Shown here piece after piece: positions 12,529 through 58,991 of a stretch of 64,000 bases of DNA (position 1 is its first letter; every line of letters starts with the position of its first letter). A program made the position numbers and the translations under genes. The stretch comes from Sphingomonadales bacterium (GTDB lineage: Bacteria; Pseudomonadota; Alphaproteobacteria; Sphingomonadales; Sphingomonadaceae), in assembly GCA_028868535.1 (NCBI GenBank), contig JAGWUH010000005.1:1-64000 (forward strand). The letters are read 5' to 3'. The notes beneath the pieces are model-generated. The model searched no databases. It worked only from the letters and a program-made list of their open reading frames with translations, and had not been told where the DNA came from.

Positions 12529-15099
12529 TCAGTAGACGCCGCCCTGCTCGGCCGCGAAATCGCCCGGCGCGGTCTCCTCGCCGCTGCCCTGCGCCGCGCT
12601 GCCACCCTCGACGCCACGGCGGATCTGGTCGAGCAGTTCCTCGCGCTTGGCCGCCAGCTGCTCCTGCCGGCTCGGCCGCTGCGGCTCGGTCTCCGGCTTG
12701 AACGCCTCCCAGATCACCCCGGCCTTGGGATCGTCGCTGGGCGCCCCGGTGAACACCCGCTGCCCGCTGACCCGGTCGATCCGCACCAGCCGCACCCCTT
12801 CGGGGGCGATGAACGGGGTATGGTCCCAGCGATCGCGCGATTCGGTGATGAACTGCTTCATGATCGGCGCGGCATACGTGCCGCCCTGGGCATAACCGCC
12901 CAGCGACTTCGGCTGGTCATAGCCGATGTAGACGCCGCCGACGATGTTGGCGCTGCCCCCCATGAACCAGACGTTGGTCGGCCCCGAGGTCGTGCCGGTC
13001 TTGCCGAACAGCGGCAGGTTGAGGTCGCGCAGCACCACCGCGGTGCCGCGCAGCACCACGCCTTCCAGCATGTGGACGACCTGGTAGGCGGTGCGCGGGT
13101 CGAGCACCTGCCGCCCCTTCGGCGCCAGCCGGGGCATCGGCTTGCCATCCCATTCGGCCATGCTGCACGCGTTGCAGCGGCGGTTGTCGGCACGCCAGAT
13201 CACCTTGCCGTTGCGATCCTGGACATAGTCGATCAGCGAAGGCGCGTATTGCACCCCCGAATTGGCCAGCGCTGCATAGGCGTTGACCATCTGCGCCACC
13301 GTCGTTTCGCCGGCACCGAGCGCGAACGACAGGTACGGCGGGTACTTGCCGATGCCGACGCGCTCGAAGGTCTTCGTCACCTTGTCCATGCCGGTGTCGT
13401 TGGCGATGTGCACGGTCATCAGGTTGCGCGACTGCTCCAGCCCCCAGCGCATCGTGTGGATGCCGCCGTTGCCCGAGTTGTCGAAGTTGCGGAAGCACTT
13501 CTGCCCCAGCGCCGCACCCTGGTAGACGCAGAACGCCTGATCCGGCACCATCGTCGCCGGGGTCATGCCGTTGTCGAGCGCGGTGGCATAGACGAACGGC
13601 TTGATCGTCGATCCCGGCTGCCGCATCGCCTGCGTCGCCCGGTTGAACGAATCCAGCCCCGAATCGAACCCGCCCTGCATCGCCAGCACGCGGCCGTTGT
13701 ACGGGCTTTCCACCACCATCCCGCCCGACACAGCCGGGATCGCGCGGACCACCCAGCCGTTCCCCTCGGGCGATGCGGCGACGACGTCGCCGGCGCGGAC
13801 CGGATCGGCCATGCCCGAAAGCGGCGCCGTCGTGCCGTCGGGGAAGCCGATCGTCGCGCTCGGCCCGCTGCGCCGCAGCACGACGCCGACGCGCCAGTCC
13901 TTGTAGGCGATCGACTTGTTCAGCCCGACCAGTTGCCGCTGCCAGTGCTCGGCATCGAGGTCGAGATGCGCGATCGGCCCCGGCCAGCCCTTGCCCGACC
14001 AGTAGCGCAGCAACCCCGCACGCAGCGCCGAAAGGCTGGCGTGCTGCAGCGCCGGGTCCATCGAGGTGCGCACCCACAGACCGCCCGCATAGATCGAATT
14101 CGGCCCGTCCTCGGCGCTCTCGCCATACTTGTCGATCAGCCGCCGCCGGACTTCCTCGACGAAATAGCCGACGGCGGCGTCATAGACCTCGACCCGGCGA
14201 GCGATCACCCCCAGCGGCTGCGCCTTGGCGGCATCGGCATCGGCGCGGCTGGCCCAGCCGTTCTTGACCATCTGGTCGAGCGCCCAGTTGCGCCGTTCCA
14301 GCGCCATCCCCGCGAACTTGGCGCGGCCATAGGTCTCGGGCGCCTTGGGCAGGATCGCCAGGAACGCCGCCTCGTGCAGCGCCAGCTTGTCGACGTCCTT
14401 GCCGAAATAGGCGCGCGCCGCCGCCTGCACGCCGAAGCTCTGCCGCCCCAGCGGGATCTCGTTGAGGTAGAGCTCGAGGATCTGCTGCTTCGACAGCACC
14501 CCCTCGATGCGCCGCGCCAGGATCATCTCCTTGAGCTTGCGGCTGACCGAGTACTCGTTGCCGATCAGGATGTTCTTGGCGACCTGCTGGGTGATCGTCG
14601 AGCCGCCGCGCGCGCGCTGGCCCGATCCGAACTTCAGCCCATAGTCGACCACCGCCTGCGCCAGCCCGATGTAGTCGACGCCGCCGTGGCTGAAGAAATT
14701 CTTGTCCTCGGCCGACAGGAAGGCGTGGATCAGCGGCTGCGGAAAATCGACATAGCGCAGCTGCACCCGCCGTTCCCGCGCATAGGAATAGACGATCGAG
14801 CCGTCGGCGCCGCGCACCATCGTCGGCAGCGGCGGCTGGTAATCGACCAGCGTGTCGGCCGAGGGCAGGTTGCGCAGCACCGCCAGCCACAGCACCGCAT
14901 AACCCAGCACCAGCGCGCCCAGCAGCGAAGCGCCGATGCGGAACAGCCAGCCCGAACGCCAGCGCGCGGCAAACCACGCCGAAACCGGCGCCAGGTGCCC
15001 GCCCAGCGCGCCCGCGCCGTCGCGCAGCCGCGACCACACGCCGCCGACCTCGCGCCGGATGCGGTAATGCCGGTTGTCGTCGGGACCCTCGTCAGCCAT
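12529..15099 (-). CDS. mrcA: Penicillin-binding protein 1A (bifunctional transglycosylase/transpeptidase)
   Basis: FLSAEDKNFFSHGGVD, STITQQVAKNIL, RQPGSTIKPFVYATAL, FGKTGTTSGPTNVWF. Confidence 0.95.
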   Translation of the reverse strand: MADEGPDDNRHYRIRREVGGVWSRLRDGAGALGGHLAPVSAWFAARWRSGWLFRIGASLLGALVLGYAVLWLAVLRNLPSADTLVDYQPPLPTMVRGADGSIVYSYARERRVQLRYVDFPQPLIHAFLSAEDKNFFSHGGVDYIGLAQAVVDYGLKFGSGQRARGGSTITQQVAKNILIGNEYSVSRKLKEMILARRIEGVLSKQQILELYLNEIPLGRQSFGVQAAARAYFGKDVDKLALHEAAFLAILPKAPETYGRAKFAGMALERRNWALDQMVKNGWASRADADAAKAQPLGVIARRVEVYDAAVGYFVEEVRRRLIDKYGESAEDGPNSIYAGGLWVRTSMDPALQHASLSALRAGLLRYWSGKGWPGPIAHLDLDAEHWQRQLVGLNKSIAYKDWRVGVVLRRSGPSATIGFPDGTTAPLSGMADPVRAGDVVAASPEGNGWVVRAIPAVSGGMVVESPYNGRVLAMQGGFDSGLDSFNRATQAMRQPGSTIKPFVYATALDNGMTPATMVPDQAFCVYQGAALGQKCFRNFDNSGNGGIHTMRWGLEQSRNLMTVHIANDTGMDKVTKTFERVGIGKYPPYLSFALGAGETTVAQMVNAYAALANSGVQYAPSLIDYVQDRNGKVIWRADNRRCNACSMAEWDGKPMPRLAPKGRQVLDPRTAYQVVHMLEGVVLRGTAVVLRDLNLPLFGKTGTTSGPTNVWFMGGSANIVGGVYIGYDQPKSLGGYAQGGTYAAPIMKQFITESRDRWDHTPFIAPEGVRLVRIDRVSGQRVFTGAPSDDPKAGVIWEAFKPETEPQRPSRQEQLAAKREELLDQIRRGVEGGSAAQGSGEETAPGDFAAEQGGVY

Positions 15100-46233: not shown

Positions 46234-47621
46234 TGCGCGCGCGCTTGCTGCTGGGTGCGATGCTGGCGCTGGGGGCCTGCGCGCGCGAGCCGGCGCGGAT
46301 CGCCGCGCCGACGGTGCCGCACGGTGCCGGCTTCGTCCGGATCGGCGATCTCGACCGGTCCGTCCCGATCGGTTCGTGGTGGGCCGCGCTGGGCGACGAG
46401 ACGCTGTCGGGGTTGATCGCGCAGGGAATGCGCCAGGCGCCGACGCTGGAGGCGGCGGCGGCGCGGCTGCGCCAGGCGCGTGCCGGCGTGGCGGCGGCGC
46501 AGGCGGGCCTCGCGCCCACGCTGGGCGCCGGGCTGCTCTATGCGCACGCGCGGGTGCCCGATGGCGCGCTCGGCGGCAGCAATGGCTCGCTAGACCTCTA
46601 CGACGCCGGTTTCGATGCGCAGTGGGAAATCGACCTGTGGGGCGGCAAGCGGCGCGAGCGCGATCGCGCGCGGGCCGAGGCACGGGCGGCGGAGGCGCGG
46701 CTGGCGGACGCGCGCGTGGCGCTCGCGGCTGAAATCACCCGCGCCTATGTCGCCTTGCGCGGTCAGGAAGCGCGCGCGGCGCTGGCGGCGCGGCGGGAGG
46801 CGATGGACGCGCAACTGCTCGACATGACGCAGGCCCAGCGCGAAGCCGGGACGGTGACGCAAGCCGCGGTCGAGTCGGCCGAGGCGCGGCTGGGGGCAAC
46901 GCGGGCCGAGCGGGCCCGGATCGCGGCCGAGGCGGCGGTGGCGCGCGACGCGCTGGCGGTCCTGACCGGCGCGGCGCCGGGGGCGCTCGACGGGCTGACG
47001 GCGGGACCGATCCCGCTGCCGCCCCGCACCGTCGCGGTCGGCGATCCGACCGCGCTGCTGGCGCGGCGGCCTGACGTGCGCGCGGCCGAGGCCCGCCTGA
47101 TGGCCGCGCACGCGGGGATCGGCGTCGCCGAGGCGCGGCGGCTGCCGCAGGTGAGCTTCATGGGCATGCTCGGGCTGGGCGGAACCGGCCCGGGCGACGT
47201 GTTCGACGCCGGCCGGCTATCGACGCTGGCGTTGCCGCGGCTGACCTGGAACCTGCTCGACTTCGGGCGCGGCGCCGCCGAAGTGCGCGGCGCCAGGGCC
47301 GGGCGCGATGCGGCGCTGGCCGACTATCGCGGCGCCGTGCTCGGCGCGCTGCAGGACGCGGAGGCGGCGCTGGCGCGCTATGGCGCGGCACGGGTGGAGG
47401 CAGGAAACGCCGCCGACGCGCTGCGCCACGCCCGCACCAGCGCCGATCTGGAGCGGATGCGCGCCGACGGCGGCACGATCGCCCCGGCACAGGCGCTGGA
47501 GGCCGATCGCGCCACGCTCGATGCCGAGGCCGCCGAAATCGCCCGGCGCGAGGCGCTGACCGCGGCTTATGTCACCGTGGGCAAGGCGCTCGGCCGGGGG
47601 TGGGACGTCAAGCCCGACTGA
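46233..47621 (+). CDS. Efflux outer-membrane lipoprotein (NodT family)
   Basis: LLLGAMLALGACAREPARI; DPTALLARRPDVRAAEARLMAAHAGIGVAEARRLPQ. Confidence 0.92.
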   Translation: MRARLLLGAMLALGACAREPARIAAPTVPHGAGFVRIGDLDRSVPIGSWWAALGDETLSGLIAQGMRQAPTLEAAAARLRQARAGVAAAQAGLAPTLGAGLLYAHARVPDGALGGSNGSLDLYDAGFDAQWEIDLWGGKRRERDRARAEARAAEARLADARVALAAEITRAYVALRGQEARAALAARREAMDAQLLDMTQAQREAGTVTQAAVESAEARLGATRAERARIAAEAAVARDALAVLTGAAPGALDGLTAGPIPLPPRTVAVGDPTALLARRPDVRAAEARLMAAHAGIGVAEARRLPQVSFMGMLGLGGTGPGDVFDAGRLSTLALPRLTWNLLDFGRGAAEVRGARAGRDAALADYRGAVLGALQDAEAALARYGAARVEAGNAADALRHARTSADLERMRADGGTIAPAQALEADRATLDAEAAEIARREALTAAYVTVGKALGRGWDVKPD

Positions 47622-49002
47622 GGCCGAGCCAGTTGCGAGCGGCGGGGATGTGGCGCAGCACGGCTGCTTCGAGCAGCATCACCACCAGCAGCGAGGCGGT
47701 GAACAGCGGCAACCAGACCATCAGCGCCAGCAGCGTCAGCCGGAAGCCCCAGCCCTTCGGCCAGGTGCCGGAGCCCGGCGGCGCACCCAACCCGCCAGCC
47801 GGCTTGCGGCGGCGCCAGAGCACGAAACCGGATACCGCCACCAGGACCAGCGCGGCGGCGGTGAACACCCCGATGAGCTGGTTGATCCAGCCGAACAGCT
47901 GCCCTTCGTGCCAGGCGACGCCATAGCCGATCACGCGGTCGATCCAGTGCCGATCCGCGAAGTCCTCGCGCGAGAGGCGGTGCGTGCCGCCGGCGTCATA
48001 GCGGATGGTGACGCGCAGCGGGCGGTTCTGGGCGTCCGACTTGATCACCCAGCCGCTCGCCGGCTTGCCGCTGCCGCCCTCGCCGGAAGGCATTCCCGGC
48101 GGCACGACTTCCGCCGGAAACGCCAGGTTCGCGCGCGCTGCCAGCGCGGCCATGACGTCGAGCGTGGCGGCATCCCGTGCCGGGAACGGCGTCGCCGGCA
48201 TCGCGTGGTCCATTCCCGCCATGCCTGCCGCCATCGCCGCGTGGTTGTGCTCGGCGTGGAGGTCGTCGCCGTCGGCAGGCTTGCCGCCGATCGTCCAGTC
48301 CTGCGGCCCCTGCATCAGGCCCAGCTCGCCGCGGGCAAGCTTGAACGCGCTGCCCCAGCTCTGTGCCCAGGGCAAACCCGTGAACAGCAGCACCAGCGCC
48401 AGCGCCGACACCCAGAAGCCGGTGACCGCGTGGAGATCGCGCCATAAGGGGCGGCCCCGCCTGCCCAGCCGCGGCCAGACCACCCCCGCCGGCCCGCCGC
48501 CGCGCGGCCACCACAGCGCCAGGCCCGACAGGATCAGCACGATCGTCCAGCTCGCCAGCAGCTCGACCAGGATCGAACCGCTGCGGTCGAACAGCAACTG
48601 GCCGTGCAGCCGGCGGTCCCACGCGATGACCCGCGTCTCCGGGTCGAGCGCGCCCAGCACCCTCCCCTGCGGCGAGACGAACACATCGCGCATCCGGTGC
48701 CCCGGCAACGCGAGGTGGACCATCGCCGCATCCCCCGCCCGCTCGGGAAGGCGATAGAATGCCAGCCTCGTCCCGGGATGGGCGGCCAGCGCCGCCGCCA
48801 CCTGTGCCGAAGGCGCCACCGCGCCGGCGGTCGGCAGGTTGTGGAACGCTCGCTCCTCCCACCGCTCCACCTGCGGCTTGAACAGGTAGAGCGCACCGGA
48901 GAGCGACAGCACGATCACGAACGGGATCACCAGCAGCCCGGCATAGAAATGCCAGCGCCACAGCGTGCGCCAGATCGCGGTTGGAGCAGAGGATTCAGCC
49001 AT
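47608..49002 (-). CDS. PepSY-associated TM domain protein with His/Met-rich insert
   Basis: LWRWHFYAGLLVIPFVIVLSLSGALYLFKPQVERWEERAFHNL; LHAEHNHAAMAAGMAGMDHAMPATPF. Confidence 0.9.
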   Translation of the reverse strand: MAESSAPTAIWRTLWRWHFYAGLLVIPFVIVLSLSGALYLFKPQVERWEERAFHNLPTAGAVAPSAQVAAALAAHPGTRLAFYRLPERAGDAAMVHLALPGHRMRDVFVSPQGRVLGALDPETRVIAWDRRLHGQLLFDRSGSILVELLASWTIVLILSGLALWWPRGGGPAGVVWPRLGRRGRPLWRDLHAVTGFWVSALALVLLFTGLPWAQSWGSAFKLARGELGLMQGPQDWTIGGKPADGDDLHAEHNHAAMAAGMAGMDHAMPATPFPARDAATLDVMAALAARANLAFPAEVVPPGMPSGEGGSGKPASGWVIKSDAQNRPLRVTIRYDAGGTHRLSREDFADRHWIDRVIGYGVAWHEGQLFGWINQLIGVFTAAALVLVAVSGFVLWRRRKPAGGLGAPPGSGTWPKGWGFRLTLLALMVWLPLFTASLLVVMLLEAAVLRHIPAARNWLGLSRA

Positions 49003-49014
49003 GGTCGCTCCCGA

Positions 49015-51177
49015 TCAGATATGCGCGCGGATGCCGAAGGTCGCCCAGAACGGCATGCCCCGCGCCGGGACGGTGCTGCCGCTGACGATGCTGCCGTTGG
49101 TGGCGGTGAGCCCGAGCCCCTGGTCCAGGAACCGGTTGTTGCCGACGTTCTGCAGCGACGTATAGAGCGTCAGGCCCGGCCGCACCTCCCACGCCGCGCC
49201 GAGGTCGACGATCGTCGCCCCGTCGTTGCGCTGGACGTGGCTGGTGCTGGCCCAATAGGCCGGGAAGCTCTTCACCGCGACGTTGAACTGCAGCGCATCG
49301 CTCGCCCGCCACGCCGCGCTCGCGGTCAGCGTCCATTCGGGCACCTGGCCGAGCTGCTGGCCGACAGGGTCGGGAATCACGCCGTTCGAGGCGGCCGCAT
49401 AGAGCGAGTGCGTCAGGTGCGCATCGGTATAGGTGAACCCGCCCTGCGCCGAGAGCCGCCCGCGCCGCCATGACCCCAGCACCTCGAAGCCGCGCAGCAC
49501 CGCATCCCCGGCATTCACGTACTGGTTGAGCCGGCCGCCGTTGATCCCGACGATGCCGGTACCGCAATAATTGTTCGCCGCCGCGCAGCCCGATTGCACG
49601 GTGGCGAAATCGATGAAGTTGCGCAGCGTGTTGGCATAGGCGCTGGCCTGCAGCGAGATCTCGCCCAGCGCCCCTTGCGCGTTGAAATCCAGCCCGATCT
49701 CCCCGCCGAGGTTGGTCTGCGGCTTCAGGTCCGGGTTGAACGTCGTGTAGCTGGTCCCGCCGATGAACGAGCGGACCATCTGGTTCATCCCGGGCGCGGC
49801 GAAGTTGGAATAGGCCGCACCGCGCAGCGACAGCCCACGGCCGAGCGCCAGTTTCATGCCGATACGCGGGTCGAAGCGGCTGATGGACTGGTCGGCGATG
49901 GCACTGGCAAGGACGGTGCCGCGATAGTTGCCCGACAGGCTGCCGTCGGCGGTCTGCCAGAAGTCCCCGCGCAGGCCGATCGTCACCTCGAGGGGGAAGG
50001 CCCCGGGTGCGAGCGTCGCCTGCGCGAAGACACCTTCAAAGTGATGCTTCGCCTTTGCCAGCAGGTTGCCGGTGGCGCCGGTGGTGGCGAACAGGTTCAG
50101 CGGATCGCTGGCCGAAAGGCTGCGCCCGTCGACGCCGAGCTTGATGTCCTTGAGCACGCCGAGGCTCGCCTGCCAGACCAGGCTGCCGCCCAGGCTGTGG
50201 TACGTGGCGTTCTCGGTCTGCGAGACATAGGGCACGCCAACCGCCGGATTGAAGATCGAGAAACCCGGCGTCTGGCTGACGTTGGTGGTGTTCATCAGCC
50301 CGCCGCCGACCCAGCCGGTGAGCGCGAGCCGGCCGCCACCGACGCGCTTCTCCCCGCCGAACGCGACGCGCCAGGTCTGCCAGCGGTTCTGGGTCAGCGT
50401 CCAGACCAGGTTGTTCTCCTGCAACCGGTGCCAGGACGCGGTGAGGAAGAGGCTGCTGTCGGCGCCCGTCGCGGCGCGGACGGAGCCCTGGATGTTGAGG
50501 TTGTTCGACGACGTCGCCGCCATCGCCGGGTTGCGATATGCTTCGGGCGTCTTGTTGTAGCCGGCCGAAGTCGTGTCCGAGACGGTCAGTCCCGCGACCA
50601 CGTCGCCCCCCAGCGCCAGGCCGGCGGTGGCAGTCCCCGAAAGCGTGCGGAAGCTGCCGACGCTGGCGTCGAAATCCATGTGCTCGGCCTCGGGCGCGCG
50701 GGTCAGGATGTTGACGATGCCGCCCATCGCCATGTTGCCCCACAGGCTGGTGGCGCCACCGCCGCGGATCACCTCGATCGAGCCGATCTGGCTCTTGGCA
50801 ACCTGGTTCCAGTCGACCACGCGGAAAAACGCGTCGTTGGCGGGAATGCCGTCGACCATGACCAGCGTGTTGACGTTGGTGGTGGTGCCGAAGCCGCGGA
50901 TCGAGAACGTGTCGCCGGTGGGGTGGAGCACGGCAGCCGGCTGGTTCAGCGTGAACACGCCGGGGATGCGGTTGACGAGCTGGTCGGTGGCGGTCGCCGG
51001 CGACATCTCGACTTCGCGCGCGGTGATGACGGTGGCGCTGACGTCCATGTCCTTGAGCGCGGTGCCCCGCGCGGCGGTGACGACGATGGTGCCGTCGGGC
51101 GCTTCCTCGGCGAAAGCGGGCGTGGCAAGGCAGGTGGTGGCGAACAGCGCGAGCAGCGCCGGACGGATGTTGATCAT
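49015..51177 (-). CDS. TonB-dependent receptor
   Basis: Signal peptide; plug IEVIRGGGATSLWGNMAMGGIVNILT; C-terminal RGMPFWATFGIRAHI. Confidence 0.93.
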   Translation of the reverse strand: MINIRPALLALFATTCLATPAFAEEAPDGTIVVTAARGTALKDMDVSATVITAREVEMSPATATDQLVNRIPGVFTLNQPAAVLHPTGDTFSIRGFGTTTNVNTLVMVDGIPANDAFFRVVDWNQVAKSQIGSIEVIRGGGATSLWGNMAMGGIVNILTRAPEAEHMDFDASVGSFRTLSGTATAGLALGGDVVAGLTVSDTTSAGYNKTPEAYRNPAMAATSSNNLNIQGSVRAATGADSSLFLTASWHRLQENNLVWTLTQNRWQTWRVAFGGEKRVGGGRLALTGWVGGGLMNTTNVSQTPGFSIFNPAVGVPYVSQTENATYHSLGGSLVWQASLGVLKDIKLGVDGRSLSASDPLNLFATTGATGNLLAKAKHHFEGVFAQATLAPGAFPLEVTIGLRGDFWQTADGSLSGNYRGTVLASAIADQSISRFDPRIGMKLALGRGLSLRGAAYSNFAAPGMNQMVRSFIGGTSYTTFNPDLKPQTNLGGEIGLDFNAQGALGEISLQASAYANTLRNFIDFATVQSGCAAANNYCGTGIVGINGGRLNQYVNAGDAVLRGFEVLGSWRRGRLSAQGGFTYTDAHLTHSLYAAASNGVIPDPVGQQLGQVPEWTLTASAAWRASDALQFNVAVKSFPAYWASTSHVQRNDGATIVDLGAAWEVRPGLTLYTSLQNVGNNRFLDQGLGLTATNGSIVSGSTVPARGMPFWATFGIRAHI

Positions 51178-51246
51178 GATGTCGCTCTGAAGTTGGCGCG
51201 GCAACGCCGCACGCGGTCAATCGGCCCGGAATGGGCGGCTGGGGCT

Positions 51247-51654
51247 TCAGGCGTGGAGTGGCGGCGCGCGCAGTGGCGGACGCAGCCGCCGGATCGGGCC
51301 GGCGCGCGCCGGCTGGACCGCCGCGAGGCCGAGCACCATGAGCAGCGCCAGCGCGGCGGCGAGCAGGACCGGATCGGCACCGCCGAGCGCGGCCATCGCC
51401 AGCGCGCCATAGCCGCACTGGGTTCCTTCGACCTTGCCGTCATGCGCCTTTTCAGGCGCCGGCTTGCCGGGAACGACGATCTGCTGCGCTTTGGGCAGGC
51501 CGCTGGCATCGGCGCAGATGGCGATGGTGATGGACTTGCCCGCGGGCGCCAGCATCATGCCCGCCGGGACCAGCACGCGCACGACGAGCGCCAGCAGCGC
51601 GCAGAGCAGCGCAAGCTGGCGATGATCGCGCAAGGTCCGGCGCAAGCCCCCCAT
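51247..51654 (-). CDS. DUF2946-like small membrane protein
   Basis: ALLCALLALVVRVLVPAGMMLAP...ICADASG; placement upstream of a TonB receptor. Confidence 0.65.
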   Translation of the reverse strand: MGGLRRTLRDHRQLALLCALLALVVRVLVPAGMMLAPAGKSITIAICADASGLPKAQQIVVPGKPAPEKAHDGKVEGTQCGYGALAMAALGGADPVLLAAALALLMVLGLAAVQPARAGPIRRLRPPLRAPPLHA

Positions 51655-51694: not shown

Positions 51695-52717
51695 TCAGAT
51701 CGCCAGCGTCACCTTGCCGATGTGGCGGCCGGACTCGAGATGGCGGAAGGCATCGGCAATCTCCGCCAGCGCGAATTCGCGATCGAGCACCGGCTTCAGG
51801 CCATGCGCCTCGATCGCACGCACCATCGCCAGTTGATCGGCGCGGCTGCCGACGGTCACCGCCTGGAGCCGCAACCGCTTGGCCTGGACGATCGCGAACG
51901 GCATCGTGTCGATGTCGAAGCCGCCCGCCGCGCCGATCACGGCGATGTGCCCGGCGGTGCGCGCGGCAGCGAAGGATTGGCCGATGGTGTGCGGGCCGCC
52001 CACCTCGATCACGTGATCGACGCCGACGCCGCCGGCGATGTCGCGCACGGCATCCGCCCACTGCGGCGTTTCGCGGTAGTTGATGACGTGGTCGGCGCCA
52101 AGCCGCCGCAGCCGGTCGCACTTGTCCGCGCTCGACGACGTGGCGATGACGGTGGCGCCGGCCAGCTTCGCGAACTGCAGCGCGAACAGCGACACGCCGC
52201 CGGTGCCGAGCACGAGCACCGTCGCCCCGGGCCGGACCGCGCCGTCGGTGATGACGGCGCGCCAGGCGGTGACGCCGGCGCAGGTCAGCGTCGCCGCTTC
52301 CGCATGGCTGAGATTGGCCGGGGCGCGGGTAAAGCTGGCGGCGGGGCGCGTGACGATCTCCGCCGCGAAACCGTCCGCCGGGCCGCCGGGCGCATTGTCC
52401 AGTTCGCCTCGCTCGACATGGCCGTCCCGCCACTTGGGGTGAAATGTGCTGACAACCGCATCGCCGACGGCGAGTCCCCCCTCACCCTCGGGTACGCCCT
52501 CACCCACCGCGACCACCTCGCCAGCGCCGTCGGACAGCGGGATGATCCCGTCGAACGTCGGGAAAAAGCCCTTCGCGACCAGCATGTCGCGGAAGTTCAG
52601 GCTGGCGGCGCGGACCCGCACCTGAACCTCGCCCGGCCCCGGTTCGACCGGGTCGATGGCTTCCAGCCGCAGGTTGTCATAGCCGGCGGGGTGGCGGAGG
52701 CGGATCGCTTTCATCAC
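51695..52717 (-). CDS. MDR family NAD(P)-dependent alcohol dehydrogenase/quinone oxidoreductase
   Basis: VRVRAASLNFRDMLVAKGFFP; TVLVLGTGGVSLFALQFAKLAGATVIATSSS. Confidence 0.93.
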   Translation of the reverse strand: MMKAIRLRHPAGYDNLRLEAIDPVEPGPGEVQVRVRAASLNFRDMLVAKGFFPTFDGIIPLSDGAGEVVAVGEGVPEGEGGLAVGDAVVSTFHPKWRDGHVERGELDNAPGGPADGFAAEIVTRPAASFTRAPANLSHAEAATLTCAGVTAWRAVITDGAVRPGATVLVLGTGGVSLFALQFAKLAGATVIATSSSADKCDRLRRLGADHVINYRETPQWADAVRDIAGGVGVDHVIEVGGPHTIGQSFAAARTAGHIAVIGAAGGFDIDTMPFAIVQAKRLRLQAVTVGSRADQLAMVRAIEAHGLKPVLDREFALAEIADAFRHLESGRHIGKVTLAI

Positions 52718-52724
52718 GGTTTCC

Positions 52725-53129
52725 TCAGGCGTTACGGGTCAGCAAGGGCATCATCGTCGCCTCGACGACCAGCGCGTTGTAATGCTCGGCGATCGAGACG
52801 ATGCGGTCATCGCGAAAGCGGAAGGCGAACACGTACGTCTGGCGATAGTCGGTGCCGTCGATCAGCGTGCCGACCGAGCGCGCCTCGGCGACGGCGCGAT
52901 CGTCCTCGACGGTGATCGCATCGATGGTGAAGGCCAGCGGCACCTTGCAGATCGAGGCGAGGACCGGGATCAGCGCGCAATAGTCGGCGCCCGGCATCGC
53001 GCCGCGGTGCGTGGTCCAGCCGACGAGGTCGGGATGGAGGATGTCCGCGGGCAGCTTGCCGGCGGTGACTCCCGCGAAATAGCCGCGCACGAGTTCGCGG
53101 GCGCGCTCCTTGTCGATCGGCTGGGTCAT
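52725..53129 (-). CDS. NTF2/SnoaL-like protein
   Basis: MTQPIDKERARELVRGYFAGVTAGKLPADILHPDLVGWTTHRGAMPG. Confidence 0.8.
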   Translation of the reverse strand: MTQPIDKERARELVRGYFAGVTAGKLPADILHPDLVGWTTHRGAMPGADYCALIPVLASICKVPLAFTIDAITVEDDRAVAEARSVGTLIDGTDYRQTYVFAFRFRDDRIVSIAEHYNALVVEATMMPLLTRNA

Positions 53130-53179
53130 GCGCTCTCCCGGTCTGGCTTCGATTACGCTAGCATGGCGCGGCGCGCGCG

Positions 53180-53228
53180 GCTTGACCGATCGCGCCATGA
53201 TGGTCGCGGCTGTCGGGATCGGTCAAGC
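53180..53228. promoter_or_regulatory. Site A: inverted repeat in divergent promoter (17-bp element x2)
   Basis: GCTTGACCGATC (53180-53191) ... GATCGGTCAAGC (53217-53228), perfect 12-bp arms; right half TGTCGGGATCGGTCAAG, left half (rc) TGGCGCGATCGGTCAAG. Confidence 0.8.
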
Positions 53229-53271
53229 GGCGGCGGGTCGGCGGGGCTAGGCTGCCGCCGAGGGAGAGACG

Positions 53272-53811
53272 ATGATGGACACCGATGCCGCGCTTGCCGA
53301 TCTGCTCGATCGCGATGCCATCCGCCGTTGCGTGGTGCGGCTGGCCCGGGGCGAGGATCGGCGCAACCCGGATCTGATCCGCGGTTGCTGGTGGCCCGAA
53401 GCGAAATTCGACTATGGCGTCTACAACGGCGATTTCGACGCCTACCTAGCGTGGGTCGTGCCCGGCGCCGACGCGATCAAGGACACGCAGCACCTGCTTG
53501 GCCAGACCCACATCGAGCTGGAGGGCGCCCTTGCCCGCGCCGAGACGCACGTGTTCTCGTACCACCGCGTCGATGCCGGCCACGGCGATCGCGACACCTG
53601 CATCGGCGGGCGCTACCTCGACACGATGGCGAAGCGCGACGGCGAATGGCGGATCATCGATCGCGTCATGCTCTATGACTGGGAGCAGGACTGGGGCGCG
53701 GCGGCCGACTGGTCGCAGGGGGTGATGGGCTATCCGTTCACCGCCGAACACTTCCCCGGGCGCGCGAAGGGCGATTTTTCCGAAGGCTTCTTCAAGGGCG
53801 AAGCGCGGTGA
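53272..53811 (+). CDS. NTF2/SnoaL-like protein
   Basis: DRDAIRRCVVRLARGEDRRNPDLIRGCWWPEAKFDYGVYNGDFDAYLAW...GRYLDTMAKRDGEWRIIDRVMLYDW. Confidence 0.88.
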   Translation: MMDTDAALADLLDRDAIRRCVVRLARGEDRRNPDLIRGCWWPEAKFDYGVYNGDFDAYLAWVVPGADAIKDTQHLLGQTHIELEGALARAETHVFSYHRVDAGHGDRDTCIGGRYLDTMAKRDGEWRIIDRVMLYDWEQDWGAAADWSQGVMGYPFTAEHFPGRAKGDFSEGFFKGEAR

Positions 53812-54716
53812 GCGGCCCTGTCGCAGGCCCGCTGGCCGGCCAGGTCGCGGTCGTCACCGGCGCCAGCCGCGGCATCGGCAAGGGCATCGCGCTGGTGCTC
53901 GCCGAACAGGGGATGACGGTCTACGTCACCGGGCGCACGGTCAATCCAGGTGATTACTACCTGCCCGGCACGGTCGGCCAGACCGCTGCCGAGTGCGACG
54001 AGCGCGGCAAGGCCAGTGGCGGCAAGGGCATCGCCGTCGCCTGCGACCATGCCGACGACGCGGCGGTGGCGGCGCTGTTCGCACGGGTCAGGGAGGAGCA
54101 GGGCCGGCTCGACATCCTCGTCAACAACGCCTTCCAGCTTTCGGAAGACCTGCTCGAGCCCAAGGGCTTCTGGGAAAAGCCGCTGTCGAACCTCGAGATG
54201 TGGGACGTCGGGGTCAGGTCTAACTATGTCGCGGCCTGGCACGCGGCGCAGATCATGGTGCCCCGGAAGTCCGGGCTGATCGTCGCGATCTCCGGCTTTG
54301 CCGCCGTCACCTACACCTACGGAGTGGTGTTCGGCACCTCGAAGTCGGCGGTCGACCGGATGGCGCGCGATATGGCGATCGAGCTCGAACCGCACAACGT
54401 CGCCTCGCTGGTGATGTGGCAAGGCCTGACGCTGACCGAGAAGGCGCGCGACAACCTCGCCAGGATGGGCGACAAGATGACCGCATCGATCACGCAGATG
54501 CACGGCAGCAGCGTCGAGCATCCGGGACGGGTGATCGCGGCGTTGGCCAGCGATCCGCAGGTGATGAAGCGCTCGGGCGGGGAGTTCATCACCACCGAGC
54601 TGGCGATGGAATACGGCGTCACCGACATCGACGGCAGCACCATCGGCTCCGCCCGGGCAACGCGCGGCTCGCCGATCTGGGCGCCGATCTCGGAGGTTGA
54701 CAATCGTGGCAAGTGA
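53808..54716 (+). CDS. SDR family oxidoreductase (DHRS1-like)
   Basis: VAVVTGASRGIGKGIALVLAEQGMTVYVTGR; FGTSKSAVDRMARDMAIEL; GTG start overlapping upstream stop. Confidence 0.92.
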   Translation: MSGPVAGPLAGQVAVVTGASRGIGKGIALVLAEQGMTVYVTGRTVNPGDYYLPGTVGQTAAECDERGKASGGKGIAVACDHADDAAVAALFARVREEQGRLDILVNNAFQLSEDLLEPKGFWEKPLSNLEMWDVGVRSNYVAAWHAAQIMVPRKSGLIVAISGFAAVTYTYGVVFGTSKSAVDRMARDMAIELEPHNVASLVMWQGLTLTEKARDNLARMGDKMTASITQMHGSSVEHPGRVIAALASDPQVMKRSGGEFITTELAMEYGVTDIDGSTIGSARATRGSPIWAPISEVDNRGK

Positions 54717-55269
54717 CCGGGAAAAGCGCCTAGATGCGCTGCTCGACAAGGAGGATATCCGCGATTGCCTGCGCCGGTTCTCGCGCGGGATGGACCGGTT
54801 CGATCGCGACGAATACCTGTCGGCGTTCTGGCCGGACGCGGAAATGGCCGCAGGGCCATACGTCGGCGACGTTCCCGGTTGCTGGGACTGGGCGATGCCG
54901 ATGCATCGCGACTGGCAGGTGCTGACGCAGCACAGCCTGCTCAACACCACGATCGACATCGACGGGGATGCCGCGCACACCGAGACCTATTACCTCTTCG
55001 TCGCGCGCAACAAGCCCTTCCCGGGCGCCGATGCCGAGACGCTGACGCTGGCGGGCGGCCGCTACGTCGATCGTTTCCAGCGGCGCCACGGGGAATGGCG
55101 CATCGCGCTGCGCACCAACGTCATCGAATGGGCGAGCGATGCCCCGCCTGCGGCTGTCCCGTTCGGCGACGTGCCCGACATCGCCGCCAACGGCGTCTCC
55201 GCGCGCGATCGCAGCGATCCGTCCTATGCGAGGCCGCTGGTGAACAAGCGGGCGCGCAACCAGCCCTGA
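54706..55269 (+). CDS. NTF2/SnoaL-like protein
   Basis: LDKEDIRDCLRRFSRGMDRFDRDEYLSAFWPDAEMAAGPYVGDV...GGRYVDRFQRRHGEWRIALRTNVIEW; GTG start inferred. Confidence 0.85.
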   Translation: MASDREKRLDALLDKEDIRDCLRRFSRGMDRFDRDEYLSAFWPDAEMAAGPYVGDVPGCWDWAMPMHRDWQVLTQHSLLNTTIDIDGDAAHTETYYLFVARNKPFPGADAETLTLAGGRYVDRFQRRHGEWRIALRTNVIEWASDAPPAAVPFGDVPDIAANGVSARDRSDPSYARPLVNKRARNQP

Positions 55270-55305
55270 AACCTCGGGCGCCCGGCTATCGTGCGATCTA
55301 TCGCG

Positions 55306-55971
55306 CTAGATCGGAGCCCCCTTGCTGACCCACCAGGCCAGCGCGGCGGCGGCGATCGCCGCGATCGCGAACCGGACGATCCCGGCCGGCGCCAGCGGCT
55401 CTACCGCAGGGTCCACGGCGGGATCGGCGCCGGTCAGCATCGGCAGGATCAGGTTGCGACCGCGCAGGCGGTAGAAGGCGATCGCGGCGACGTGGATGGC
55501 CACCGTCAGCAGCAGCAGCTTGAAGATCAGGTGGTGGAAGTGGGCCAGCCGGTCGGCGGTGTCGTAATCGACCAGGGAATTGAGCGGGCCGGGATAGAGC
55601 GCGTCGGTATCCTGCGCGAACAGCCCGGTGCCGACCTGGGCCAGCAGCAGCAGCAGCAGCACGACGACACTCCACCCGCCCAGCGGATTGTGCCCCGCGG
55701 TCGCCGGCCCGGTGCCGCGCAAGTATGCGATCACCGCGCGCGGGCCGCGCACGAAGCGGGCAAAGCGCGCGGTGCTGCCGCCGACGAAGCCCCAGATCAG
55801 GCGGAAGGCAAGCAGGCCGAAGGCCGCGATGCCGGAAAGCTGGTGGCGTTCGAGATCGCCGGTCTCGCCGCTGTACCACGAATAGGCGAACAGGCCGACG
55901 AGCAGCCAGTGGAACAGGCGGGTGGGCACGTCCCACACGCGAACCGGTGTGGTGGCGGAACTGGTGGCCAA
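55306..55971 (-). CDS. Cytochrome b561-type membrane cytochrome b
   Basis: VRVWDVPTRLFHWLLVGLFAYSWYSGETGDLERHQLSGIAAFGLLAFRLIWGFVG. Confidence 0.9.
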   Translation of the reverse strand: MATSSATTPVRVWDVPTRLFHWLLVGLFAYSWYSGETGDLERHQLSGIAAFGLLAFRLIWGFVGGSTARFARFVRGPRAVIAYLRGTGPATAGHNPLGGWSVVVLLLLLLAQVGTGLFAQDTDALYPGPLNSLVDYDTADRLAHFHHLIFKLLLLTVAIHVAAIAFYRLRGRNLILPMLTGADPAVDPAVEPLAPAGIVRFAIAAIAAAALAWWVSKGAPI

Positions 55972-56055
55972 GGTCGCTTCTCCCCGATCAGGACCGGCGT
56001 CCTATAGCGTGGCGGCCGCCGATTGCGCCATCAAATCGGCGCCGCGCCCATTCGA

Positions 56056-56970
56056 TCAGGCTTGTCCCGACGCCATCGCGAAGCTGCGGCCAAGATGCTC
56101 GCCGAAACCGTTCTCGGCCGGGTGGAACGTCCACTGGCGGCGCGCGTCGCGGATCTCGGGCAGGCGTTCGGCGACGTCGTCGATCGTCCACGCCGGCAGG
56201 TAGACGCCTTCGGTCTCGGTTACGAAGGCGCGGGCAATGCGCCCCGCGACCGAGGCATAGAGTTCCGCCGTCACCGCGCAGCTCTCGTGGCACAGGTAGG
56301 CGACCAGCGGCGCCACCAGTTCGGGCCGCATGTCGGGATAGGCCGACGTGTCGAGCCCCTCGGCCATCCGCGTCAGCGCGCCCGGAAGGATGACGTTGGA
56401 CTTCACCCCGTGCTCCGCCCCCTCGATGGCGATGGCGTTGTTCAACCCGATCATCGCCGACTTCGCCATCGCGTAGTTGACCGTCTGCGGCATCGTGTAG
56501 AGTCCACCGATCGATCCCGTCAGCACGACGCGGCCATAGCCGGCCCCGCACATCCGCTCGAACGCCGGCCGCACGACGTGGAACGCGCCGAGCAGGTGGA
56601 CGTCGATCACCGCGCGGAAATCCTCGTAGGACGTGGACGCCAGCGGAGCGAAGCGGTTGTTGCCGGCGTTGTGGACCAGCACGTCGATCCGGCCGAAGCG
56701 GTCGAGCGCGGCCTGGACGATCGCCGCCCCGCCCGCCGGCGTGGCGACCGTGTCGGTGCTGGCCACGGCCTCGCCCCCCATGGCGGCAATCTCGTCGACG
56801 AGCTGCTGCGCCACCGAGCTGTCGCCACCGTCGCCGGAAATGGCGCTGCCGTTGTCGTTGACGACCACTTTGGCGCCGAGACGGGCCAGCAACAGCGCAT
56901 ATTCGCGGCCCAGGCCCCTGCCCCCGCCGGTAATCACGGCCACCCGGCCATCGAAACGACGCGCTGTCAT
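56056..56970 (-). CDS. SDR family oxidoreductase
   Basis: VAVITGGGRGLGREYALLLARLGAKVVVNDNG; VNYAMAKSAMIGLNNAIA. Confidence 0.92.
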   Translation of the reverse strand: MTARRFDGRVAVITGGGRGLGREYALLLARLGAKVVVNDNGSAISGDGGDSSVAQQLVDEIAAMGGEAVASTDTVATPAGGAAIVQAALDRFGRIDVLVHNAGNNRFAPLASTSYEDFRAVIDVHLLGAFHVVRPAFERMCGAGYGRVVLTGSIGGLYTMPQTVNYAMAKSAMIGLNNAIAIEGAEHGVKSNVILPGALTRMAEGLDTSAYPDMRPELVAPLVAYLCHESCAVTAELYASVAGRIARAFVTETEGVYLPAWTIDDVAERLPEIRDARRQWTFHPAENGFGEHLGRSFAMASGQA

Positions 56971-56985
56971 GCCCTGAACCCCCTG

Positions 56986-57861
56986 CTACTGGCTGCCAAT
57001 CGGTCCGAACACCGGCGTGCCGCGCTGCTCGCGCAGGCTCGGGATCATGCGGCCGTCGATATCGGTCACGCCATATTCGGCCGCCAGCTCGGCATTGATC
57101 CAGCTCCCGCCGGACTTGGCCATCAACCCGGGATCCTTCAGCAGCGCCGCGATCACCCGCCCGGGAAACTCGGGGCTGGACCCCGCCATGCTGTTCAACT
57201 GCGCCGCCATTCCCGGCACCGAGCTGAGATTCTCGATCGCCCGCTCGGTAAAGGTGAAGCCCTGCCACAGCGAAACGGAAGCAACCCCGTGCGGCTGCAA
57301 TTCCACCGCCATGTCCCGCGCCATCCGGTCCGTCGCGGACTTGGTGGTGCCGAACAGCGTGTCGTAGGTGTACGTGCGGCCGACGTAGCCGGACATCGCC
57401 ACGATCAGGCCGGACTGCTGCGGCACCATGATCCGCGCGGCATGCCACGCGGCGATGTACGCGGCGCGGACGCCGGTGTCGAAGATTTGCCAGTTCGACA
57501 GCGGTTTTTCCCAGAAGCCCACGCGCTGGGTCATTTCCGGGGGAATGGCCATGGCGTTGTTGACCAGGCAATCGAGCCGGCCCTGCTCGGCGCGGACGGC
57601 TTTGAACAGCGCGGCGATGGCGTCGTCGTCCTGGAGGTCGAGGGCGAAGGGAATGGCTTTGCCGCCGTTATGGGCACCTTTTGCCGCACATTCGGCGACG
57701 GTTTCCTCGAGGCTACCGGGCAGCGGGCTGGCGCCCGGATGCAGCGTGCGGCCGGTGACGTAGACCGTCATGCCCTCGCCCGCCAGGGTCAGCGCGGTGC
57801 CCTTGCCGATGCCGCGGCTGGCGCCGGTGACGACCGCGACCTTGCCCGCCAGTTTGCCCAT
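56986..57861 (-). CDS. SDR family oxidoreductase (DHRS1-like paralogue of 53808)
   Basis: VAVVTGASRGIGKGTALTLAGEGMTVYVTGRTLHPG; FGTTKSATDRMARDMAVEL. Confidence 0.92.
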   Translation of the reverse strand: MGKLAGKVAVVTGASRGIGKGTALTLAGEGMTVYVTGRTLHPGASPLPGSLEETVAECAAKGAHNGGKAIPFALDLQDDDAIAALFKAVRAEQGRLDCLVNNAMAIPPEMTQRVGFWEKPLSNWQIFDTGVRAAYIAAWHAARIMVPQQSGLIVAMSGYVGRTYTYDTLFGTTKSATDRMARDMAVELQPHGVASVSLWQGFTFTERAIENLSSVPGMAAQLNSMAGSSPEFPGRVIAALLKDPGLMAKSGGSWINAELAAEYGVTDIDGRMIPSLREQRGTPVFGPIGSQ

Positions 57862-57906
57862 CGCTCTCCCTTTCGCGGCCAGCCTAGGCGGACGATCCCG
57901 GCATCG

Positions 57907-57950
57907 CTTGACCGATCCCGACAGTCGGACCGTTGTCGGCATCGGTCAAG
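57907..57950. promoter_or_regulatory. Site B: inverted repeat in divergent promoter (17-bp element x2)
   Basis: CTTGACCGATCCCGACA (57907-57923) - 10 nt - TGTCGGCATCGGTCAAG (57934-57950), arms match 16/17. Confidence 0.85.
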
Positions 57951-57998
57951 GCGGATAGGCCTGTTCGTGGCCATGATCGGCCCGAAGGGAGAGGCAGG

Positions 57999-58991
57999 AT
58001 GGCGCAAGTGCAGACCGTGCGGGGGCCGATCGACGCGGGCGCGCTCGGCAAGGTCCTGATCCACGAGCATATCTTCCTGATGGATGCCGAGTATGTCCTG
58101 AACTACCGGCCCGATTTCTTCTCCGACAAGACCATCGACGACGCCGTGGAGCGACTCAACGCGCTCAAGGCCAGCGGCATCGACACCATCGTCGACCTGA
58201 CCGTGCTGGGGCTCGGCCGCTACATTCCGGCGGTGGCGAAGGTGGCAGAGCGGACAGACCTGAACATCATCGTCTCCACCGGGGTCTACACCTTCAACGA
58301 CGTGCCACAGCCGTTCCAGTTCACCGGGCCGGGGCTGCTGTGCGACGTGCCCGAACCGATGCTCGACCTGTTCCTCAGGGATATCAACGAGGGCATCGCC
58401 GGGACTGGGATCAAGGCCGGCGAGCTGAAGTGCGCGATCGACATGCCGGGGATGACCAAGGGCGTCGAGCGGGTGATGCGCGCGATCGCGCGGGCCAACG
58501 TGCTGACCGGCACGCCGATCACCGTGCACACCGCGCCGCAGAACCGGTCCGGGCTGCTGGTGCAGGACCTGCTGGAGTCCGAAGGCGTCGACCTGCGCGA
58601 CGCGGTGATCGGCCATTGCGGCGACAGCACCGACATCGACTACCTGATGGCGGTGGCGGATCGCGGATCGCTGCTGGGGATGGACCGGTTCGGCATCAAT
58701 TTCACCATCACCGCCGAGGAGCGCGTGGCGACGATCGCGGAGCTGTGCCGGCGCGGCTATGCCGGGTCCATGGCGCTGGGGCACGATTGCTGCGCCTGGT
58801 CGGACTTTTTCCCCTCCGTCTCCGACTACCACCGGGTGATGCCGCAGCACCACTACCTGCACATCCACGACGACGTGATTCCGGCATTGCGGGCGGCGGG
58901 GGTGAGCGAGGGCGACCTGGAGCTGATGTTCGTGGCGAACCCGCGCCGGCATTACGAAGGGCCGGCGGAGCGTTTTGCCGCGAAGGATTAA
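57999..58991 (+). CDS. Phosphotriesterase-family amidohydrolase (PTE/lactonase-like)
   Basis: LGKVLIHEHIFLMDAEYVLNYRPD; GLGRYIPAVAKVAERTDLNIIVSTGVYTF; VIGHCGDSTDIDYLMAVADRGSLLGMDRFG. Confidence 0.9.
   Translation: MAQVQTVRGPIDAGALGKVLIHEHIFLMDAEYVLNYRPDFFSDKTIDDAVERLNALKASGIDTIVDLTVLGLGRYIPAVAKVAERTDLNIIVSTGVYTFNDVPQPFQFTGPGLLCDVPEPMLDLFLRDINEGIAGTGIKAGELKCAIDMPGMTKGVERVMRAIARANVLTGTPITVHTAPQNRSGLLVQDLLESEGVDLRDAVIGHCGDSTDIDYLMAVADRGSLLGMDRFGINFTITAEERVATIAELCRRGYAGSMALGHDCCAWSDFFPSVSDYHRVMPQHHYLHIHDDVIPALRAAGVSEGDLELMFVANPRRHYEGPAERFAAKD

Follow-up and report, generated by a model that had tools for sequence, protein, structure and literature searches.

The window analyzed here, a stretch of 64,000 nucleotides from a Sphingomonadales bacterium, contains four putative catabolic operons arranged as two divergent pairs, and the same 17-bp element lies in front of each of them. 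This raises the question of whether the element joins these operons into one regulon and, if so, what kind of protein would act at it.

Four boxes at two divergent promoter regions

In the first divergent pair, the minus strand carries the genes for NTF2a, an SnoaL_2 protein (52725..53129, PF12680), and an MDR zinc-type dehydrogenase/reductase (51695..52717, PF00107/PF08240), and the plus strand carries those for NTF2b, an SnoaL_4 protein (53272..53811, PF13577), SDR1 (53808..54716, PF00106), and NTF2c, a further SnoaL_4 protein that is a paralog of NTF2b (54697..55269, PF13577). The second pair consists of SDR3 (56986..57861), a paralog of SDR1, and SDR2 (56056..56970), whose closest solved relative is the (3R)-hydroxyacyl-CoA dehydrogenase 2et6, both on the minus strand, and of a phosphotriesterase (PTE)-like hydrolase on the plus strand (57999..58991; PF02126, 270.7 bits). 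A cytochrome b561-type gene recognized by Pfam (55306-55971, minus strand) lies between two operons and has no box of its own. Beyond the hydrolase gene follow the genes for an acyl-CoA thioesterase and a propionyl-CoA-carboxylase-type protein, and a BioB-like protein was recognized by eye in the window. On the other side, genes for a PepSY_TM protein, a TonB receptor, and a DUF2946 protein stand in a row at 47608-51654 and look like a separate metal-uptake set outside the regulon; the TonB receptor gene (49015-51204), which has no box near its start, was rejected as a regulon member.

The four 17-mers (two exact copies, one with one mismatch, and one with two mismatches) form two head-to-head pairs, each between divergent genes. 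Site A, flanked by NTF2a-MDR and NTF2b-SDR1-NTF2c, contains box A-left, TGGCGCGATCGGTCAAG (53181..53197, minus strand; profile score 21.0 bits), in the promoter of the former operon, and box A-right, TGTCGGGATCGGTCAAG (53211..53227, plus strand; 27.2 bits), in that of the latter. Site B, flanked by SDR3-SDR2 and the PTE-like hydrolase gene, likewise contains box B-left, TGTCGGGATCGGTCAAG (57907..57923, minus strand; 27.2 bits), in the promoter of SDR3-SDR2, and box B-right, TGTCGGCATCGGTCAAG (57934..57950, plus strand; 25.3 bits), in the promoter of the hydrolase gene. Each box is followed by a -10-like hexamer. TAGCGT (53155..53160, minus strand) lies 20 nt after box A-left, and the same TAGCGT is found 20 nt after the box in another genome of the family (G216). 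TAGGCT lies 20 nt after both box A-right (53248..53253, plus strand) and box B-left (57881..57886, minus strand), and CATGAT (57972..57977, plus strand), the weakest of the four, lies 21 nt after box B-right. The hexamers end 18, 25, 19, and 21 nt before the start codons, from which short leaders of about 11-18 nt would be expected, a plausible promoter layout.

A preliminary description of this DNA had reported four 17-mers as two inverted pairs, both between divergent genes, with spacers of 19 nt to CTAGGCT (53247-53253, plus strand), CTAGCGT (53161-53155, minus strand), and CTAGGCT (57887-57881, minus strand), and of 20 nt to CCATGAT (57971-57977, plus strand). The 17-mers and the spacers were found as reported, and the gene map bears out the position of both sites.

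Rarity of the box and its recurrence in other sphingomonads

Matches with up to three mismatches are expected 0.19 times in the window, and four of them were reached in 1 of 100 shuffles. The genome of origin (3.39 Mb in 77 contigs, 82.8% complete) was examined by pattern searches rather than by a profile scan, and the 17-mer proved to be neither common nor randomly placed in it, the only exact matches being those at 53211 and 57907. Two mismatches were found at six places, box A-left among them, and three at 42 (reversed control, 8 altogether); the loose matches are therefore partly the background of a GC-rich genome. The core TGTC-N3-AT-N2-GTCAA (TGTCNNNATNNGTCAA) has three matches in the 3.39 Mb, all in the window, where composition predicts 0.2 and the reversed control gave 0. 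For the inverted pair TTGACCGAT-N14-34-ATCGGTCAA, this genome has two matches, both in the window, and only 1 of the 398 other genomes of the family has any. An inverted pair in genome G231 lies beside an SDR gene, but its outer halves misfit the box and it is probably due to chance. A further pattern, TGTCNNNANNNGTCAA, has six matches in the genome of origin against 1.3 expected; those outside the window and contig 55 (contig 21 at 42112 and contig 32 at 2936) may be chance matches.

The four boxes in the window are not a product of chance. The paralogy of SDR1 and SDR3 makes a duplication of the promoter region conceivable, in which case site B would be a functionless copy of site A, but sites A and B are unlike in the DNA that separates and flanks their boxes, and in other genera, too, boxes precede the orthologous genes, so that chance or mere duplication is hardly credible as an explanation.

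In the orthologous NTF2/SDR clusters of other sphingomonads, the box reads about TGTCCGAATYGGTCAAG. Over 18 sites the consensus is TGTC-C/G-G-R-A-T-Y-G-GTCAAG, with TG.C and GTCAA present in every site, and all 18 have the same orientation, the GTCAAG end pointing towards the gene. When named genomes were searched with the PTE protein, nine loci emerged, three of which (L034, L038, and L042) keep most of the cluster in a shuffled order. Of the 398 other genomes in the family, 12 have an NTF2b ortholog, and four megaplasmids, from Novosphingobium and Sphingobium, carry SDR1 orthologs. Twenty NTF2b loci were compared; at 9 of them, counting the window (8 of the 19 others), a TGTC-N7-GTCAA box stands no more than about 150 bp ahead of NTF2b, and the element is in this sense conserved in related sphingomonads; in about half of the loci compared, it is absent from this position. 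At L042, the SDR3 ortholog of Novosphingobium sp. ST904 (12560-13412) is split between two frames, by either a frameshift or a sequencing error.

The box also precedes genes of other kinds. A TonB receptor gene follows it at L041, L042, and L078. The last of these, on a megaplasmid of Novosphingobium sp. RL4, has two boxes on the same strand (8735 and 8843) 108 bp apart; in the first (CGTCGGGATCGGTCAAG), one base is changed. At L036, boxes lie on both sides of an araC gene, and at L071 a second box precedes an acyl-CoA ligase gene. In G216 and G027, a box with TA at exactly 20 nt precedes a gene for an FAS1_DH/MaoC-like dehydratase, and such a gene also adjoins NTF2b at L071 and in Sphingobium sp. 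RAC03. No good box was found in front of the MaoC orthologs of the genome of origin; an 18.5-bit match near the MaoC gene of contig 76 points away from it and lacks a -10. The TonB receptor gene on contig 57, the closest in this genome to that of L041, was likewise set aside, no box being present at its locus (L096). A family-wide search with the pattern TGTCNNRATYGGTCAAG gave 13 places in 11 of 399 genomes (2 in the reversed control). It led to NTF2b/araC loci and to the dehydratase genes of G216 and G027, and the matches in five genomes (G284, G135, G354, G126, and G392), in or near unrelated genes, were taken as chance. The sequence TGTCGAAATCGGTCAAG was observed in G247 and G282, both from one other genus, and in one of them beside an acyl-CoA dehydrogenase gene; neither araC nor NTF2b is present near these two sites.

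Promoter geometry and the candidate regulator

Of 16 sites outside the window, 12 have TA at a distance of 20-22 nt after the box, and circular shifts of the same sequences gave a mean of 1.3 and a maximum of 7 in 20,000 trials. The conserved -10 spacing claimed from the window is thus reproduced at the boxes of other genomes. With TA 20-22 nt after the box and a spacer of about 17 bp, the -35 would therefore be located at the downstream end of the box, which is a class II layout, and we conclude that the box is a predicted class II activator site of the AraC family that abuts the -35. The fixed distance to the -10-like hexamer would also be expected if the element were the extended -35 of an alternative sigma factor. 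However, the conserved 17 bp are longer than a sigma -35 element, and araC genes accompany the box, which is confined to one gene set; we consider a sigma factor very improbable here.

In the preliminary description, the four copies were presented as two inverted pairs. A head-to-head pair could be a single palindromic operator of a dimeric repressor, such as a TetR or MarR protein, blocking both promoters until the substrate is present: divergent promoters that share one repressor site are common, and in both window sites the outer halves TTGACCGAT...ATCGGTCAA form a perfect inverted repeat. This seems unlikely to us, as the distance between the boxes, centre to centre, is 30 bp in site A but 27 bp in site B, which leaves the half-sites without a constant face, single boxes are found in relatives, and the regulators linked to the box in seven relatives are of the AraC type. 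Because the spacing differs and the relatives have single boxes, a single shared operator was rejected and each pair is taken as two independent promoters placed back to back. The unit is best read as one asymmetric 17-bp box per promoter. In the NTF2b loci compared, only one clear box per promoter was seen, in a comparison that would miss a degenerate second box.

A gene of the AraC family lies directly beside the box at seven loci (L034, L036, L041, L066, L070, L071, and L074) and is mostly divergent from the target gene. The seven proteins are 44-65% identical and have the HTH region in common; PF12625 and PF12833 are present in all four that were scanned (L034, L041, L066, and L074), as well as in a protein encoded on contig 55 of the genome of origin. 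Because araC genes are linked to the box in orthologous clusters, the AraC family is most likely the class of the regulator. The earlier proposal that a single regulator would serve the four promoters is supported, and the stretch from 47.6 to 62.9 kb of the window showed no regulator gene, in agreement with its reported absence from the cluster. No PF12625 gene was found on the contig of the window, which continues to 115 kb, and the five PF12625 genes of this genome are all on other contigs.

Among these five, the araC gene of contig 55 (33011-34084) is the closest to the linked ones, with 42-51% identity. One of the six TGTCNNNANNNGTCAA matches is located directly upstream of it and oriented away from it, as in the linked cases; this box is degenerate (16 bits). 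The box TGTCCGAAAAGATCAAG of G216 (L118:7614) has the same placement. The AraC protein tree does not resolve the orthology of the contig-55 protein to the linked ones. The contig-55 AraC protein, although unlinked, is the strongest candidate that this genome offers for the regulator, rather than a demonstrated partner of the boxes. We give some weight, tentatively, to the possibility that the boxes are of the AraC type but that another AraC protein acts at them, its gene lying in the missing 17% of the assembly. The completeness of 82.8% would allow this, araC genes are linked to the box in relatives, including a genome of the same genus (G289), and the contig-55 protein shares only 42-51% identity with the linked AraC proteins. 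On the other hand, it is the closest of the five PF12625 proteins and its gene has a box-like sequence in the promoter, and the window's own contig, as far as 115 kb, is without a PF12625 gene.

Taken as a whole, we think it quite likely that the boxes are bound by an AraC-type activator with PF12625 and PF12833, which switches on the four catabolic operons together. Such an activator would bind each asymmetric 17-bp box, the downstream end of which would abut or overlap the -35, with the -10 hexamer 20-21 nt further, as in class II activation. When bound by an inducer derived from the substrate, it would recruit RNA polymerase and jointly switch on NTF2a-MDR, NTF2b-SDR1-NTF2c, SDR3-SDR2, and the PTE-like hydrolase gene, and the four operons would serve the catabolism of a probably alicyclic or steroid-like compound. 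Alternatively, an AraC protein might act as a repressor at the same boxes.

The gene set and its relation to known systems

The catabolic nature of the gene set, as proposed earlier, is supported. The NTF2-fold and MaoC-like dehydratases, the SDRs including an MFE2-like one, the PTE-like hydrolase, the CoA ligase, the TonB receptors, and a ketosteroid-dehydrogenase-like flavoprotein encoded near the L071 cluster suggest an alicyclic or steroid-like substrate. The PTE-like protein of the window has the PTE family domain with the metal-binding residues. It is similar over its full length (360 bits) to its closest solved relative, M. tuberculosis PHP (PDB 4if2), with which the HxH, Lys, His, His, and Asp positions align, and it may be a lactonase; a lactone-containing substrate would be a guess made from this one hydrolase. 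A further idea, that the NTF2 proteins resemble LdpA of lignin degradation, was abandoned, as the profile gave only weak PDB relatives, which were uncharacterised or a putative scytalone dehydratase.

The chances seem to us about even that these genes belong to a sphingomonad catabolic regulon spread over several genera and megaplasmids, with AraC-type activators that need a single box, a cyclic substrate, and a regulator gene that can part from its target cluster. If so, the paired NTF2-fold dehydratases, three SDRs, and a PTE-like lactonase would handle a cyclic compound, and some genomes would add a MaoC-like dehydratase, a CoA ligase, and a TonB receptor. NTF2/SDR/PTE genes that lie scattered in sphingomonads would then form a single regulated pathway, with a box that can be defined and a group of regulators. 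The box is also a search pattern for more pathway genes, and has already led to the MaoC-like dehydratase, the CoA ligase, and the TonB receptors. Our literature searches found no description of the regulon or the box; the mechanism would be an ordinary one, namely class II activation of the AraC type, and the regulon is apparently undescribed.

The bile-salt cluster bsd II of Caenibius tardaugens and cluster 1 of Sphingobium sp. Chol11 have SDR and dehydratase genes beside an AraC-family gene, with putative operators near the -35/-10 (PMC12882949). By their description, these sphingomonad clusters resemble the gene sets that carry the box; the passages on bsd II give no box (PMC12882949). The nearest named NCBIfam family of the regulators is QhpR, to which the L034 and contig-55 proteins score 169.3 and 166.6 bits; both are below the curated cut-off of 250, and an identity with the QhpR equivalog was rejected. 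The target genes also differ, those of QhpR being for amine dehydrogenase, unlike the genes that follow the box here.

Class II activation in the AraC/XylS family is known from AraC at araI and XylS at Pm. Two direct-repeat boxes are usual in the classical AraC/XylS promoters, although they are not universal in the family, whereas here one box per promoter is recognizable and the regulator is unlinked in the genome of origin. In other respects the likeness is close: the sites of this family are asymmetric and 17 bp long, and the downstream one abuts the -35, as predicted in the window; moreover, the AraC-type domain with two HTH motifs and the fixed distance to the -10 are also found in the linked regulators and at the boxes described here.
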